Shown: piece after piece, positions 91 to 45,403 of the stretch
Numbering within the stretch: the stretch's first letter is position 1
How the letters are laid out: the number at the start of each line of letters is the position of its first letter
Notes under the pieces: generated by a model
Databases searched by the model: none
What the model saw: the letters and a program-made list of their open reading frames with translations, nothing else
What the model was told of the DNA's origin: nothing
Translations under genes and position numbers: made by a program
Source: Cyclobacteriaceae bacterium
GTDB lineage: Bacteria > Bacteroidota > Bacteroidia > Cytophagales > Cyclobacteriaceae
Length of the DNA stretch: 64,000 nt
Assembly (NCBI GenBank): GCA_016786585.1
Contig: JAEUUI010000007.1
Location: 1 to 64,000, forward strand
Direction: 5' to 3'

Positions 91-933
91 ATGCAGATTT
101 TCAAGGAAATCGGCCCGTTAAAGGCATTTTTAGTTGAAAAGCGAAAGCAGGGCAATACGCTCGGTTTTGTGGCCACAATGGGAGCCCTTCACGAGGGACA
201 TTTGAAGCTCATCCGTGAGTCTCAAAACGACAATTCCGTCACCATTTGTTCCATTTTTGTGAACCCTTCCCAGTTCAATAACCCGGAAGATTTACAGAAA
301 TATCCCCGTACGCTCGAAAAAGACATTATACTGCTCGAAAAAGCGGGTTGTGATGCCCTTTTTTGCCCGGAAGTCGAAACGATGTACCATCAGAAAAGCT
401 ATTTGCGCTTCGATTTCGGCCATCTCGACAAAGTGATGGAAGGCCAATTCCGGCCGGGCCATTTTAGCGGTGTGGCACTGGTCGTTTCCAAGCTGCTTCA
501 CATTGTGGAACCCCATGTCGCCTATTTCGGGCAAAAAGACTGGCAGCAGTTCGCCATCATCCGGCAGCTGGTTTCCGAGCTTCAGTTTAATGTAGCGTTG
601 AAGAGTATTCCTACGCTACGCGAAGCCAGCGGGTTGGCGATGTCGTCACGCAATGCCCGGCTTACCAATATCCAACGCGAAAAAGCTGCTTTGATCCACA
701 ACACGTTACTCTTGGCAAGCGATAAATTGATAGCCGGAGACTCAATCCCAGCCGTTAAAAAAACTGTGACTGAAATGCTGGAAGCCGATAAGGATTTCAA
801 AGTCGAGTATTTCGAGATTGCCGACAGCGAAAACTTAACGTTATTAAATAACGTTACAGAATCTGCACAACCAATTTTATGCATCGCAGTGTTTGTGGGT
901 GATGTAAGATTGATTGATAATATGTTTTTGTGA
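91..933 (+). CDS. panC: Pantothenate synthetase
   Basis: This cytoplasmic enzyme joins pantoate and beta-alanine with ATP to make pantothenate, the vitamin B5 precursor of coenzyme A. The 280-residue length is normal for the family. The ATP-binding HIGH-like motif TMGALHEGH is at residues 29-37. FVNPSQF follows near residue 57, GQKDWQQF near 148 and the KMSKS-like SSRNARL near 184. It starts at an ATG about 75 bases from a divergent promoter. panD follows 32 bases downstream, so the pair supplies both the beta-alanine and its ligation step. No anomalies were seen. Confidence 0.97.
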   Translation: MQIFKEIGPLKAFLVEKRKQGNTLGFVATMGALHEGHLKLIRESQNDNSVTICSIFVNPSQFNNPEDLQKYPRTLEKDIILLEKAGCDALFCPEVETMYHQKSYLRFDFGHLDKVMEGQFRPGHFSGVALVVSKLLHIVEPHVAYFGQKDWQQFAIIRQLVSELQFNVALKSIPTLREASGLAMSSRNARLTNIQREKAALIHNTLLLASDKLIAGDSIPAVKKTVTEMLEADKDFKVEYFEIADSENLTLLNNVTESAQPILCIAVFVGDVRLIDNMFL

Positions 934-40430: not shown

Positions 40431-41660
40431 TTACGCGCTATGCAATAATTCTGAAACGGGTGAAGTCTGCGCGGCTTTGAAGGTCGCCTGCGGTGCCAGA
40501 ATTATTCCAATGTTCTCATTCTGTGCCCATTCTTTAAGTTTTGCGAAATCGGTTTGGCCGACCATGTACTGCTGACCGCTGGCTGCATAACCGGCTTCAA
40601 ATTTTTCAAAGTCGCGGATCGCAACATTTTCGCCCTGAGGGAATCGTACAAACGTTTCGATCGACCAGTTATTAGAGAATTCGTTTCGCGGTAATTGATT
40701 TGTTTTTTTGTATTCGTAACGATAATCGTAGGTGAGTGCTGAAATGTCGGAGAGCACGGCTGAGCCGGTCGGATAGCTTCCCGCACCTTTGCCAACAAAC
40801 AACTGCTTATCCGCGAAAGCGCCCTGAAGCTGAACCGCATTGTACTCAAGCCGGATGTTGCTTAACGGGTTCTCAGCCTCTACAAATTGAGGCGCAACAA
40901 GACCGTAGATTTTCCCATCAACGCGTACCGCGCGGGCAATCAGCTTGATCGCGTAACCTTTTTCGCGGGCAAACTTCAGATCGAGATCAGAGATTTTATC
41001 GATACCGATGTTGACGATATTTTCAGGCTTCACGAAAACACCAAAGGCATGCGCGATAGCAATCGTAAGCTTGAACTTCGGATCGAACGCCTGCACATCA
41101 AGTCTTGGATCGGATTCAGCAAAGCCAAGTTCCTGGGCCTGCTTCAGCGCTTCGGCATAGCCTTTCTTCTCCTCAAATACTTTTGTGAGAATATAATTAG
41201 TGGATCCGTTAAAGATTCCTTCGATGCCGGTTAATAGATCGTTATCGTAATATTCCTCCAGGTTGCGAAGAATCGGAATACTTCCGCATACAGCGCCTTC
41301 ATACAGAACAGACCGATCATATTGCTGTTGCAGATAAAAAATTTCTTCCAGGTGTTCGGCAATCATTTTCTTGTTGGCGGTAACAACATGCTTGCCGTTT
41401 TTCAACGCGGTTTTCAGAATTTCAAATGCCGCGTTGGCATCATCAATCAACTCTACGACTACATCAATTTCAGGATCGTTCAGCACAGCATCTTTATCGA
41501 ACACGAAAAGGTCCTTGCTCAGCGGCCGTTGCTTTTCTTTATTTTTTACAACAATCTTTTTGATCGTGGCTTTCAGCCCATGGGTTTCTTCCAGCACGTG
41601 GTATAATCCCTGACCCACACATCCGAATCCGAATAAACCCAATGTTAATTTCTTTCTCAT
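40431..41660 (-). CDS. hom: Homoserine dehydrogenase
   Basis: This 409-residue enzyme reduces aspartate semialdehyde to homoserine with NAD(P)H. The nucleotide motif GFGCVGQGLYHVLE is at residues 10-23. GTANKK-like HVVTANKKMIAEH is near residue 93 and the conserved FNGSTNYIL near 150. AQELGFAESDPRLDVQAFDPKFKLTIA near residue 175 is the catalytic Lys/Asp region. There is no aspartokinase fusion. It is the third gene of metY-metX-hom and supplies homoserine to MetX. The SAM/cysteine leader may control it through read-through. Confidence 0.94.
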   Translation of the reverse strand: MRKKLTLGLFGFGCVGQGLYHVLEETHGLKATIKKIVVKNKEKQRPLSKDLFVFDKDAVLNDPEIDVVVELIDDANAAFEILKTALKNGKHVVTANKKMIAEHLEEIFYLQQQYDRSVLYEGAVCGSIPILRNLEEYYDNDLLTGIEGIFNGSTNYILTKVFEEKKGYAEALKQAQELGFAESDPRLDVQAFDPKFKLTIAIAHAFGVFVKPENIVNIGIDKISDLDLKFAREKGYAIKLIARAVRVDGKIYGLVAPQFVEAENPLSNIRLEYNAVQLQGAFADKQLFVGKGAGSYPTGSAVLSDISALTYDYRYEYKKTNQLPRNEFSNNWSIETFVRFPQGENVAIRDFEKFEAGYAASGQQYMVGQTDFAKLKEWAQNENIGIILAPQATFKAAQTSPVSELLHSA

Positions 41661-41688: not shown

Positions 41689-41746
41689 TGTCAGGTTGAG
41701 CTTGTCGAAACCTGATTATGCAGTCTTCGACAAGCTCAGACTGACA
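41689..41746. repeat. Inverted repeat (REP-like) overlapping the end of metX
   Basis: TGTCAG..TGAGCTTGTCGAA (41689-41709) and TTCGACAAGCTCA..CTGACA (41726-41746) are inverted copies with a 16-base spacer. The motif TTCGACAAGCTCAG occurs as a dispersed element in many Bacteroidota genomes. It encodes the last residues of MetX (SLSLSKTA) and contains its stop. Confidence 0.7.
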
Positions 41747-42767
41747 GGAATTTTGTAAAACTTTTTAATGATTTCTTTGAATGTTTCGAACTCCACTAAA
41801 AAGCCGTCATGGCCATAAGCCGATGAAAGTGTTTTTAGTGATGCATCCGGAATGTGTTTTGCTAAAAACTCCTGCTCTTCGGGCGGAAATAAAATGTCGG
41901 TGTCGATACTGATCACAAGCGCTTTCGCGCGGATGGATCGCAGAGCTTCCTCAACGGACTCTTTCCCACGTCCAACATTGTGGCTATCCATCATTTTAGA
42001 AAGCAACCAGTACGTAAAGGCATTGAACCGCTTCGCAAGCTTTTCGCCCTGATAGCGTTGATAGGTTGCTGCACGAAAATCTTCGGTTACTTCCGCTGAG
42101 CGTTCCGATTGTGATTGTGCAAATCCGGTGTAATGCCGGTAAGAGAGCATACCGATCGCGCGGGCAGCTTTTATTCCATTTAGGCCTGCACGTTCATCAT
42201 TTTCTTTCCAGGTCGGGTCGGCCTCAATCGCCAGGCGTTGGGCTTCATTAAAGGCAATTCCCCACGGCGAATGAAACGCATTGGTTGCGATAACAATGAT
42301 GTGTTCAAATACTTCCGGTTTTGAAATAGACCACTCCAATACTTGCTGCCCGCCCAGCGATGCGCCAATCAGCGTGTGCACTTTTTCAAATCCCAGGTGT
42401 TCACGCAACAGATCGAACGCTTCCACTACATCGCGATTCGTGAGTGTGGGAAAGCTGTGAAAAAATGGCTTACCAGTTTGTGGATTGATCGACAGGGGTC
42501 CGGTAGATCCGTAACAGCCACCCAGCATGTTAACGCAAATGATAAAATGGTCATTCGGATTAAACGGACTGTCATTCGTAAACAATGTGCTCCACCATGA
42601 AGTAACATCCGAGTTTCCGGTTAATGCATGACACACCCAAACAATGTTTGAACGTGATGCATTCAGTCGCCCCAGTGTTGTGTAGCGAAGCTGGAAGCCG
42701 GGCAATGATTTGCCCGACTCCAGTTCGAAAGTTTGATGATAATGAAAGGTGTGATCCGTTTTCTGCA

Positions 42768-42768
<1 letters not shown>
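41716..42768 (-). CDS. metX: Homoserine O-acetyltransferase
   Basis: This 350-residue alpha/beta-hydrolase acetylates homoserine, activating it for sulfhydrylation by MetY. The nucleophile Ser lies in IGASLGGQQVLEW near residue 140, with GGCYGSTGP near 100 and the catalytic His in SYGHDGFLVE near 320. VCHALTGNSDV near residue 45 is the oxyanion region. The start overlaps the metY stop by 1 base (TAATG). The C-terminal tail runs through a REP-like repeat and is probably non-functional sequence. Confidence 0.95.
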
Positions 42769-44102
<1,334 letters not shown>

Positions 44103-44160
44103 TTAAATTTTTTTGATCTGTTTTATGATGATGATAAATGGACATAGCCGTAACCAAAAT

Positions 44161-44186
44161 GCCTGTCACATGACATGGTCATAGGC
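44161..44186 (-). terminator. Possible attenuator hairpin between leader peptide and metY
   Basis: GCCT (44183-44186) and AGGC (44161-44164) on the minus strand can close a stem, with inner pairing TGTC/GACA. ATTTTGG follows. The stem is modest, and an energy calculation would be needed to say whether it terminates. Confidence 0.3.
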
Positions 44187-44218
44187 TAGTGTGCTGTAAG
44201 GACGCGGAAACGCTTCGC

Positions 44219-44350
44219 TTAGCAACAGCAGCAACAACACATACACATGTTGTTACCAAACAGATTACAAATGGCTTGTTCGAGCTGAGCAATGAAAACG
44301 CGGAATCCCTGACGGAACTCGGAAGAAATGGTGTTGATGAAATTTTTCAT
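44219..44350 (-). CDS. Cysteine-rich leader peptide (uORF) of the met operon
   Basis: An unlisted 43-codon frame runs from ATG 44350 to TAA 44219. It starts MKNFINTISSEF and ends MCMCCCCCC, with eight Cys in total and six consecutive Cys codons just before the stop. Its ATG lies 10 bases after the SAM-I aptamer and its stop 128 bases before metY. Six consecutive Cys codons flanked by Met are typical of a ribosome-stalling sensor, as in mycobacterial polycysteine attenuators. The codons TGC-TGT (44225-44230) can pair with ACAGCA (44192-44197), a possible attenuation stem. A metal-binding peptide is an alternative reading. Function is inferred. Confidence 0.7.
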   Translation of the reverse strand: MKNFINTISSEFRQGFRVFIAQLEQAICNLFGNNMCMCCCCCC

Positions 44351-44360
44351 TTTACATCGG

Positions 44361-44460
44361 TTTATCGTTCCCCGAAGACCTTCTCCGGGGCAGGCTTTAG
44401 CACCTTTTCGAGGTTGCTAGCGCGTCGTAGAGCCTGTTCTCTCAGCGCTTCTTTATAAAT
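44361..44460 (-). promoter_or_regulatory. SAM-I riboswitch aptamer
   Basis: The minus strand from 44460 to 44361 has the SAM-I core order. The P1 strand ATTTAT pairs with ATAAA at the far end. Then come GAGAGAACAGGCTC, the CTAGCAACC stretch, AAAAGGTGCTAAAGCC and a CCCCG/CGGGG P4 hairpin. The GCAACC and GGTGCTAA blocks are the signature of this class. It sits about 30 bases after the promoter and 270 bases before metY, so it should lower expression when SAM is high. The switching helix was not resolved by eye. Confidence 0.88.
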
Positions 44461-44494
44461 CGATTTGGCGATACGCCCTCTCGACTTGATAATA

Positions 44495-44525
44495 CAAACG
44501 TAGGCCTGCGTGGATTGGTTTCCAA
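44495..44525 (-). promoter_or_regulatory. Promoter of the metY leader
   Basis: On the minus strand TTG (44523-44525) is 20 bases before TACGTTTG (44495-44502), a full match to the Bacteroidota consensus. Transcription would begin near 44489 and cover the aptamer and the Cys-rich ORF before metY. Confidence 0.75.
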
Positions 44526-44595
44526 GCGGTTACGGAAAAAATTTTTAAAAAGTGATCTAACAAACGTTAGCAAGACGTGATGATTACGGATAAAT

Positions 44596-44649
44596 GAATG
44601 ACGAATGTGGAATTAAAAACCTCGATTCGTCATCCAAAATTCGTCATTC
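44596..44649. repeat. Short inverted repeat between metY leader and fabG
   Basis: GAATGACGAAT (44596-44606) and ATTCGTCATTC (44639-44649) are inverted copies. A third related ATTCGTCAT lies at 44625-44633. It may be a terminator for fabG (minus) or a dispersed repeat; no T run makes it a clear terminator. Confidence 0.45.
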
Positions 44650-44656
44650 GTAATTT

Positions 44657-45403
44657 CTAGGTGAGCATTCCGCCATCTACCTGGAGCACTTGTCCGGAGA
44701 TGTAAGTAGACATATCTGATCCCAGGAACACGCATGCATCTGCCACATCTTCGGGCTTTCCGCCACGTTTCAACGGAATCGCATCACGCCAGCTTTGTAC
44801 AGTTTTGGGATCAAGCACGGCTGTCATTTCTGTTTCGATAAATCCGGGAGCAATTGCGTTCGAGCGGATGCCGCGCGAACCAAGTTCAAGCGCAACCGAT
44901 TTGGTAAAGCCAATGATCCCGGCTTTGGATGCAGCATAATTTGCCTGACCGGCATTGCCTTTCAACCCGACAACGGAAGTCATATTAATAATAGAGCCGC
45001 TTTTCTGTTTCATCATCGGCTTGGTTGCTGCCTTCACCGTGTTAAAGCACGATTTCAGGTTTACGTTAATCACTTTGTCCCACTGCTCTTCGCTCATGCG
45101 GAGCAACAATGTATCCTGTGTGATACCTGCGTTGTTAACCAGTACATCCAGCGATCCGAAATCCGCCACAACATCATTGATCAGTTTTTCGGCTTGCGCA
45201 TAATCCGATGCATCGGAACGATAGCCTTTTGCTTTCACACCTTTGGAAGCAAGTTCGGCTTCAAGCGCCTGGCCTTGTTCAACACTTGATAAATACGTGA
45301 ATGCAACATTGGCGCCTTGTTCGGCATACTTGAGGGCGATTGATCGTCCGATTCCTTTTGATGCCCCGGTAATAAGCGCAGTTTTTCCTTTTAGTAATGT
45401 CAT
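44657..45403 (-). CDS. fabG: 3-oxoacyl-ACP reductase
   Basis: This 248-residue short-chain dehydrogenase reduces 3-oxoacyl-ACP in fatty-acid synthesis. It has the cofactor motif TGASKGIGRSIA (about 12-23), NNAG near residue 90, the catalytic Ser in MTSVVGLKGNAGQ near 145 and YAASKAG near 156. The C-terminal YISGQVLQVDGGMLT is typical of FabG. A small membrane protein gene lies 23 bases upstream on the same strand. Other SDR substrates are possible, but length and ending fit FabG well. Confidence 0.9.
   Translation of the reverse strand: MTLLKGKTALITGASKGIGRSIALKYAEQGANVAFTYLSSVEQGQALEAELASKGVKAKGYRSDASDYAQAEKLINDVVADFGSLDVLVNNAGITQDTLLLRMSEEQWDKVINVNLKSCFNTVKAATKPMMKQKSGSIINMTSVVGLKGNAGQANYAASKAGIIGFTKSVALELGSRGIRSNAIAPGFIETEMTAVLDPKTVQSWRDAIPLKRGGKPEDVADACVFLGSDMSTYISGQVLQVDGGMLT

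Follow-up and report, generated by a model that had tools for sequence, protein, structure and literature searches.

Does a short, cysteine-rich open reading frame (ORF) between a SAM-I riboswitch and metY act as a sensor of sulfur amino acids in a Cyclobacteriaceae bacterium? The window analyzed here, the whole stretch of 64,000 nucleotides (contig JAEUUI010000007.1), carries such a frame, which a first-pass annotation had read as a cysteine-sensing leader. We consider it likely that this leader ORF is the sensor peptide of the metY operon, read by a ribosome that slows at Cys and Met codons. The evidence is drawn from sequence and comprises the ORF, its conservation, its tail, its position, a complementary element and attenuator-like folding predicted in relatives that carry a terminator. 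Beyond these features we infer translation, stalling, the sign of the response (starvation turns metY on) and gating by the riboswitch.

Architecture of the metY locus

The locus is arranged on the minus strand. A full-length SAM-I riboswitch aptamer (RF00162; cmscan score 69.1 bits, gathering score 44.4) occupies positions 44359..44461, with a gene for a short-chain dehydrogenase (44657-45403) as its upstream neighbor, also on the minus strand. The leader ORF, 43 codons plus TAA (44219..44350), opens with an ATG 8 nt past the aptamer. Its translation from 44350 to 44219 is MKNFINTISSEFRQGFRVFIAQLEQAICNLFGNNMCMCCCCCC, followed by TAA, which confirms the 43-codon frame with an MCMCCCCCC end proposed in the first-pass annotation. 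These last nine codons (44222..44248) form a Cys/Met tail that is evident in the sequence and in enrichment counts among relatives. A spacer of 128 nt separates the ORF from metY (42768..44090), a member of the O-acetylhomoserine/O-acetylserine (OAH/OAS) sulfhydrylase family (TIGR01326, 672 bits against a cut-off of 495; PF01053). The proposed placement between a SAM-I riboswitch and metY is thus borne out by both profile scores.

Two elements lie in the spacer. The first, ACAGCA (44192..44197), is complementary to Cys codons (TGCTGT) by sequence reading and predicted pairing, and its counterpart in relatives is often CAGCAACA. The second is a three-tier hairpin with a GUGAC loop (44145..44188), supported by covariation and matched by our model R1 at 44140-44192 with 61.2 bits. 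Beyond metY lie genes for an alpha/beta hydrolase (41716..42768, PF00561), presumably metX, and a homoserine dehydrogenase (40431..41660, PF00742 and PF03447).

Some variation surrounds this layout. A minimal ATG-TAA pair sits between aptamer and leader start in the window (44357-44352, minus strand) and in L039 and L044. An OsmC-like gene lies between leader and metY in L035, L037, L043, L117, L124 and others, with Pfam OsmC confirmed for L035 only.

Two further SAM riboswitches occur in the genome from which the window derives; they precede metH and a gene resembling a relative's RimK-like ATP-grasp gene, respectively. Both leaders were examined, and neither holds a Cys-rich ORF. The arrangement of a SAM riboswitch before a RimK-like ATP-grasp gene was seen in L041 (genome G009) and in L002 (own genome, contig C4). 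In G009, a short ORF ending CSCCC separates the riboswitch from this gene; the own genome has none there.

Conservation of the leader ORF

Within the genus, metY is present in 14 of 17 genomes, and a Cys-rich leader ORF precedes it in all 14. Thirteen of these leaders have at least four Cys among their final nine residues; the remaining one ends QPCCMRTGYTCCC. The three genomes that lack metY each have two SAM riboswitches, before a cystathionine-synthase-like gene and before metH, with no Cys-rich leader ORF at either. The window ORF differs from each of its two nearest relatives by six synonymous and six non-synonymous codons. From the first tail Cys through the stop, all eight codons are the same in the three ORFs, so this codon comparison is neutral about selection on the Cys run.

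A search with MetY extended the comparison to the best 80 named loci among the matches listed, from Cytophagales, Chitinophagaceae, Mucilaginibacter, Pedobacter, Solitalea and others. Several of these loci come from the same genomes as other sets (e.g., L125/L045, L131/L034, L122/L046, L117/L229). A Cys-rich end, defined as Cys at four of the last nine or three of the last five residues, occurs in 57 of these 80 loci, or 55 once L169 (no ATG) and L182 (distant, weak) are dropped. The comparison of metY leaders for a shared ATG, frame and Cys run, which the first-pass annotation had suggested, is therefore positive both in the genus (14/14) and among the named loci (55/80). An Rfam SAM riboswitch accompanies 54 of the 55 leaders, and 49 have an in-frame ATG no more than 30 nt past the aptamer end. 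The other 25 loci retain the riboswitch in 18 cases, and in four of the 25 (L130, L155, L162, L179) a Cys cluster inside an ORF was recognized by eye.

The tail has also been lost. Algoriphagus, Belliella, Aquiflexum and their allies keep the riboswitch, usually with an ATG about 9 nt after it, and their ORFs hold only 0-3 Cys. No other result speaks as clearly against a universal role. Relatives that keep the riboswitch without the Cys run had been named in advance as evidence against the sensor; they exist in this group, whereas all 14 metY-bearing genomes of the genus retain the Cys-rich leader. The loci of the Cys-poor group are L151, L157, L160, L168, L172, L174, L186, L188-L192 and L196.

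A separate set of Cys leaders (L152, L159, L163, L164, L180) has no SAM riboswitch directly before the ORF, which ends in Met-Pro or nearly so. Most of these carry a hairpin, AUGCC-GUAA-GGCAU, across the stop codon.

The riboswitch abuts the leader start codon

In the window, 8 nt separate the aptamer from the leader ATG; in relatives the distance is mostly 7-12 nt. Among the 72 named metY loci with a SAM riboswitch, the first ATG lies within 30 nt of the aptamer in 67, at 7-12 nt in 51 and at exactly 9 nt in 29. In the genus, the stretch of about 25 nt that follows the SAM riboswitches of metH and of the cystathionine-synthase-like gene is free of ATG.

One earlier study, in its available text, describes SAM-I riboswitches whose P1 holds the ribosome binding site in its 3′ side (PMC2258182). 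Another, as far as its available text goes, reports that translation in Bacteroidota starts in a manner dependent on mRNA structure and not on Shine-Dalgarno pairing, the mRNAs being naturally without Shine-Dalgarno sequences (PMC6847099). Because the aptamer abuts the ATG, because binding sites in P1 have precedents and because initiation depends on structure, SAM bound to the aptamer, whose end lies 8 nt before the ATG, should by analogy also hinder leader translation. The aptamer end is near a start codon in both arrangements; as far as the P1 cases are described (PMC2258182), the difference is that the start codon here belongs to the leader ORF and not to metY.

Downstream elements and the proposed sign of the response

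We propose that a shortage of charged tRNA-Cys or tRNA-Met would slow the leader ribosome at the terminal Cys (and Met) codons. Stalled there, it would block pairing of the Cys codons with the complementary element past the stop, and metY would be on. With Cys and Met plentiful, the ribosome would terminate and depart, the pairing would form and metY expression would drop.

In the window, the anti-Cys stretch is predicted to pair with the tail region at a probability of 0.87 when the RNA is free and 0.70 when the tail is masked. The corresponding means over 25 sequences are 0.80 and 0.44. A test for duplexes between tail and downstream sequence was weakly positive (20/55, against 6/55 in a control stretch). 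The window has the short ORF, the run of codons for a relevant amino acid and the position upstream of a biosynthetic gene that mark a classical attenuator. It has no intrinsic terminator, since no terminator-like site (0 sites) was found in 44000-44700. A first guess for its output step is Rho-dependent termination, by analogy with the mycobacterial Mbox uORF as described in the available text of PMC12810186.

The GUGAC hairpin was considered in its own right. Over 14 pairs in 23 distinct sequences, it shows 85.7% standard pairs, against 16-41% when slid, and a covariation score of 0.317, against at most 0.112 when slid, for a structure drawn from the same sequences as were counted and with at least two rows out of register by one base. 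The SAM riboswitch is the only Rfam 15 family above its gathering score in the window, where the hairpin matches no family, and at E up to 1 the leaders of 8 related loci had no other Rfam match. Model R1 recovered its own 22 source loci among the 80 named loci and none of the other 58. When 118 genomes of the family were scanned, eight gave a single match each, one of them being the window. A Cys-rich ORF precedes the hairpin in all seven others (six by script, L232 by reading), at least three of these seven places being repeats of source loci; in L232 the Cys cluster lies 8 residues before the ORF end. In the window, the prediction has the hairpin forming whatever the state of the ribosome. 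Its predicted probability does not depend on the ribosome (0.64, 0.69, 0.73), and it was dropped as a candidate for the switch itself.

Relatives with an intrinsic terminator

The phylum was surveyed by a search that gave a match in 196 of 257 genomes. Of 27 phylum loci read, eight have a Cys-rich ORF by the script rule, and six of 40 further upstream regions were taken by eye as Cys/Met leaders with a terminator. The order Cys/Met-rich ORF, intrinsic terminator, metY was found in L155, L162 and L179 of the named set and in L224, L235 and L236 of the survey, all six without an Rfam SAM match in the available sequence. In L248, L254, L256 and L263 the leader and its terminator are followed by a SAM riboswitch, a second terminator and then metY.

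Several of these loci have features of their own. L155 carries two tandem Cys/Met leader ORFs in the region 342..862 upstream of metY, each with its own intrinsic terminator. Met as well as Cys dominates the leader ends of L224 (MMCWSMMMPM), L235 (CMMCMCM) and L236 (CCMMCMCM). By eye, a leaderless start seems possible in some of the SAM-less relatives; TAnnTTTG is a promoter motif.

Eleven terminator-bearing leaders, chosen by eye, were folded with a model of the nascent RNA that reaches to the end of the terminator 5′ arm and omits the stretch covered by the ribosome. With the ribosome masked on a sensor codon, the 5′ arm is predicted to pair upstream with a probability of 0.50-0.94; with the ribosome at the stop, this falls to at most 0.16, except in L224 (0.46). 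Eight of the 11 beat dinucleotide shuffles at the 5% level (200 shuffles each), and the three that fall short are L248 (25/200), L263 (82/200) and L224 (31/200). Folding without a ribosome also yields the antiterminator (0.43-0.93); what supports the model is therefore only the difference between a stalled and a terminating ribosome. In this simple model, the terminator-bearing relatives have mutually exclusive antiterminator and terminator structures, and the modeled sign is read-through upon starvation.

These predictions bear on the possibility that the leader senses Cys and Met with the opposite sign, or acts at another step. Stalling would then lower metY, for instance by opening the RNA to Rho or by keeping ribosomes from reinitiating, and would spare sulfide for cysteine synthesis when Cys is short. 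The window lineage leaves room for this, given that it has no terminator, that its hairpin is predicted to be independent of ribosome state and that, in the window itself, the anti-Cys pairing is predicted to change little. Riboswitch-controlled uORFs of M. tuberculosis, in the available text of PMC11260477, can either suppress the downstream gene or be needed for it. We nevertheless regard an opposite sign as improbable, as the relatives with terminators model as read-through under starvation and reinitiation would have to bridge a long spacer, of about 100 nt or more.

Coding constraint on the Cys/Met tail

Whether the Cys content exceeds chance was examined with a rule blind to Cys, which takes as leader the first ATG 0-30 nt past the aptamer in the 72 named metY loci with a SAM riboswitch and keeps ORFs of at least 15 aa, excluding shorter leaders. 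The 63 ORFs retained hold 267 Cys in their final 10 codons. In 200 dinucleotide shuffles the mean was 38.1 and the highest count 59, a comparison that is not a probability, the rows being related to each other. At least three Cys fall within the last 10 codons in 47 of the 63. Counted by frame, Cys codons in this set number 329 in the reading frame of the ORFs and 109 and 69 in the two alternatives. The rule takes a wrong, shorter ATG in some loci (e.g., L131, L134, L150, L185). The window is outside the 72 loci, and there the rule would stop at the ATG-TAA pair just before the leader.

The composition of the tail points to more than one amino acid. Over the final 12 residues of the 55 Cys-rich leaders, Cys makes up 48% (body 2.7%), a share that is partly circular because the set was chosen by Cys, and Met makes up 9.5% (body 1.9%), a share to which this does not apply. 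Since Met is enriched and is not one base change from Cys, the tail may respond to the two sulfur amino acids together, and the leader is probably not a pure Cys sensor.

Might the Cys codons be kept for RNA pairing, as UGU/UGC repeats facing ACAACA-like elements, rather than for coding? A complementary stretch does follow the ORF in many leaders. The codons, however, are concentrated in one frame (329 against 109 and 69) and end at the stop, the run is broken by whole in-frame codons, often Met, and the tail is kept in leaders that have no complementary element. Pairing as the sole constraint is weakened by the framing, the stop and the whole-codon interruptions, and we judge it very unlikely.

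The first-pass annotation had offered a metal-binding micropeptide as its alternative. A metal- or thiol-binding product acting as a protein would suit the Cys-rich tail and the OsmC-family gene in the operon of some relatives (L035). It fits less well with the observation that the Cys/Met tail alone is conserved beyond close relatives: the ORF bodies are unrelated between lineages, yet the tail and its site by the riboswitch and metY persist. The ORF has no Pfam match, and its only NCBIfam match, to the Cys-Cys-COOH protein SaoC, falls below the threshold (13.4 bits, where 80 are required). We give this explanation hardly any weight.

Cys leaders upstream of other genes

A pattern of five Cys codons before TAA or TAG, with an ATG required, was searched in 247 Bacteroidia genomes and matched in 39; 30 of the 50 matches listed were read. 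Six of these 30 places are ATG-started ORFs, two before metY (one being the window), three before cysH and one before a PhyH-family gene. The cysH cases (L307, L314, L315; Bacteroidia) end in seven Cys codons and precede PAPS reductase genes; in L307 a SAM riboswitch ends 14 nt before the Cys ORF. The recovery of sulfur assimilation genes by an unbiased pattern is independent support, at the level of sequence, for this type of Cys leader, and the cysH leaders suggest a wider Cys-leader regulon. The ORF of L298, which precedes a gene for a PhyH-family dioxygenase, ends MMRMCCCCCCC.

An earlier order-wide pattern with TRA stops was swamped by repeats in other frames, and TAR stops with a required ATG gave a clean set. 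The order-wide pattern placed a Cys leader before metY in three loci and, in L077, 485 nt from a gene for another PLP enzyme, with a SAM riboswitch. An ORF ending QPCCCCCC lies about 190 nt before a TonB-receptor-like gene in L059, with no Rfam match at that place.

That the leader ORF is a chance reading frame can practically be dismissed: short frames are common, and 24 of the 30 places read lack an in-frame ATG and look like chance, but in-frame conservation and the frame and position tests contradict it.

Relation to known attenuators and implications

The ribosome-read sensor we favor belongs to a known kind of leader. In mycobacteria, leaderless ORFs with polycysteine runs are reported, in work by Canestrari in 2020 cited in PMC13236596, to be attenuators that respond to cysteine. 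The window ORF differs from these in not being leaderless, as an aptamer of about 100 nt precedes it. Leader ORFs with Cys runs were predicted, in the available text of PMC1262725, for cys operons of Mycobacterium and P. acnes and for cbs in B. longum. These actinobacterial and mycobacterial leaders resemble ours in having a short ORF, a Cys run near the stop, sulfur genes downstream and, as far as that text goes, no conserved terminator. Ours differ from those described there in phylum, in the target gene metY, in the Met codons of the tail and in the SAM-I riboswitch before the ORF.

Other systems share single features. The uORFC-8-2 motif upstream of cysS in Rhodobacterales, according to the available text of PMC8632094, has tandem Cys codons and was proposed to act by ribosome-mediated attenuation with an intrinsic terminator. 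The likeness is a uORF with Cys codons upstream of a gene. The differences, as far as the motif is described there, are that the gene is cysS and not metY, that the two Cys codons lie near codons 14-15 and that there is no SAM riboswitch; the window, for its part, has no terminator. In M. tuberculosis, B12 riboswitches control uORFs (PMC11260477), and the pe20 Mbox uORF involves Rho-dependent termination (PMC12810186), both as presented in the available text. There too a riboswitch acts on the translation of a small uORF and thence on the downstream gene; the ligands differ, and the text available from these two papers mentions no amino acid-sensing run at the uORF end.

Before the Firmicutes case that it reports, a 2010 survey knew amino acid leader attenuators only from Proteobacteria and Actinobacteria, as far as its available text goes (PMC2965389). 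We found no report in the open-access literature of a Cys leader or an amino acid leader-peptide attenuator in Bacteroidota, in agreement with the first-pass annotation. Its cysteine-sensing leader gains support from the comparison of relatives, from the attenuator-like folding predicted in 8 of 11 terminator leaders and from the cysH leaders; a pure Cys sensor is less probable, Met being enriched as well. What is new here is the phylum, the combined Cys and Met tail and the SAM riboswitch at the leader's start codon, leaders with a Cys run being a kind already known.

A broader model, which we hold to be evenly poised between right and wrong, is that of a two-input RNA gate. SAM would hinder translation of the sensor ORF, the ribosome would read tRNA-Cys and tRNA-Met supply at its end, and metY would answer only when SAM and sulfur amino acids are both low. 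The sensor ORF would be an old and often re-wired device of Bacteroidota, serving metY and cysH. The lineage of the window would have added a new GUGAC-loop RNA, and deeper lineages would use the order leader, terminator, SAM riboswitch, terminator.

If this is true, a phylum naturally without Shine-Dalgarno sequences would monitor its sulfur amino acids by a widespread sensor based on the ribosome, and the riboswitch would appear to gate the sensor ORF rather than the gene. The relatives are natural variants, with or without riboswitch, terminator, Cys and Met, which would make the logic and evolution of the device directly testable.
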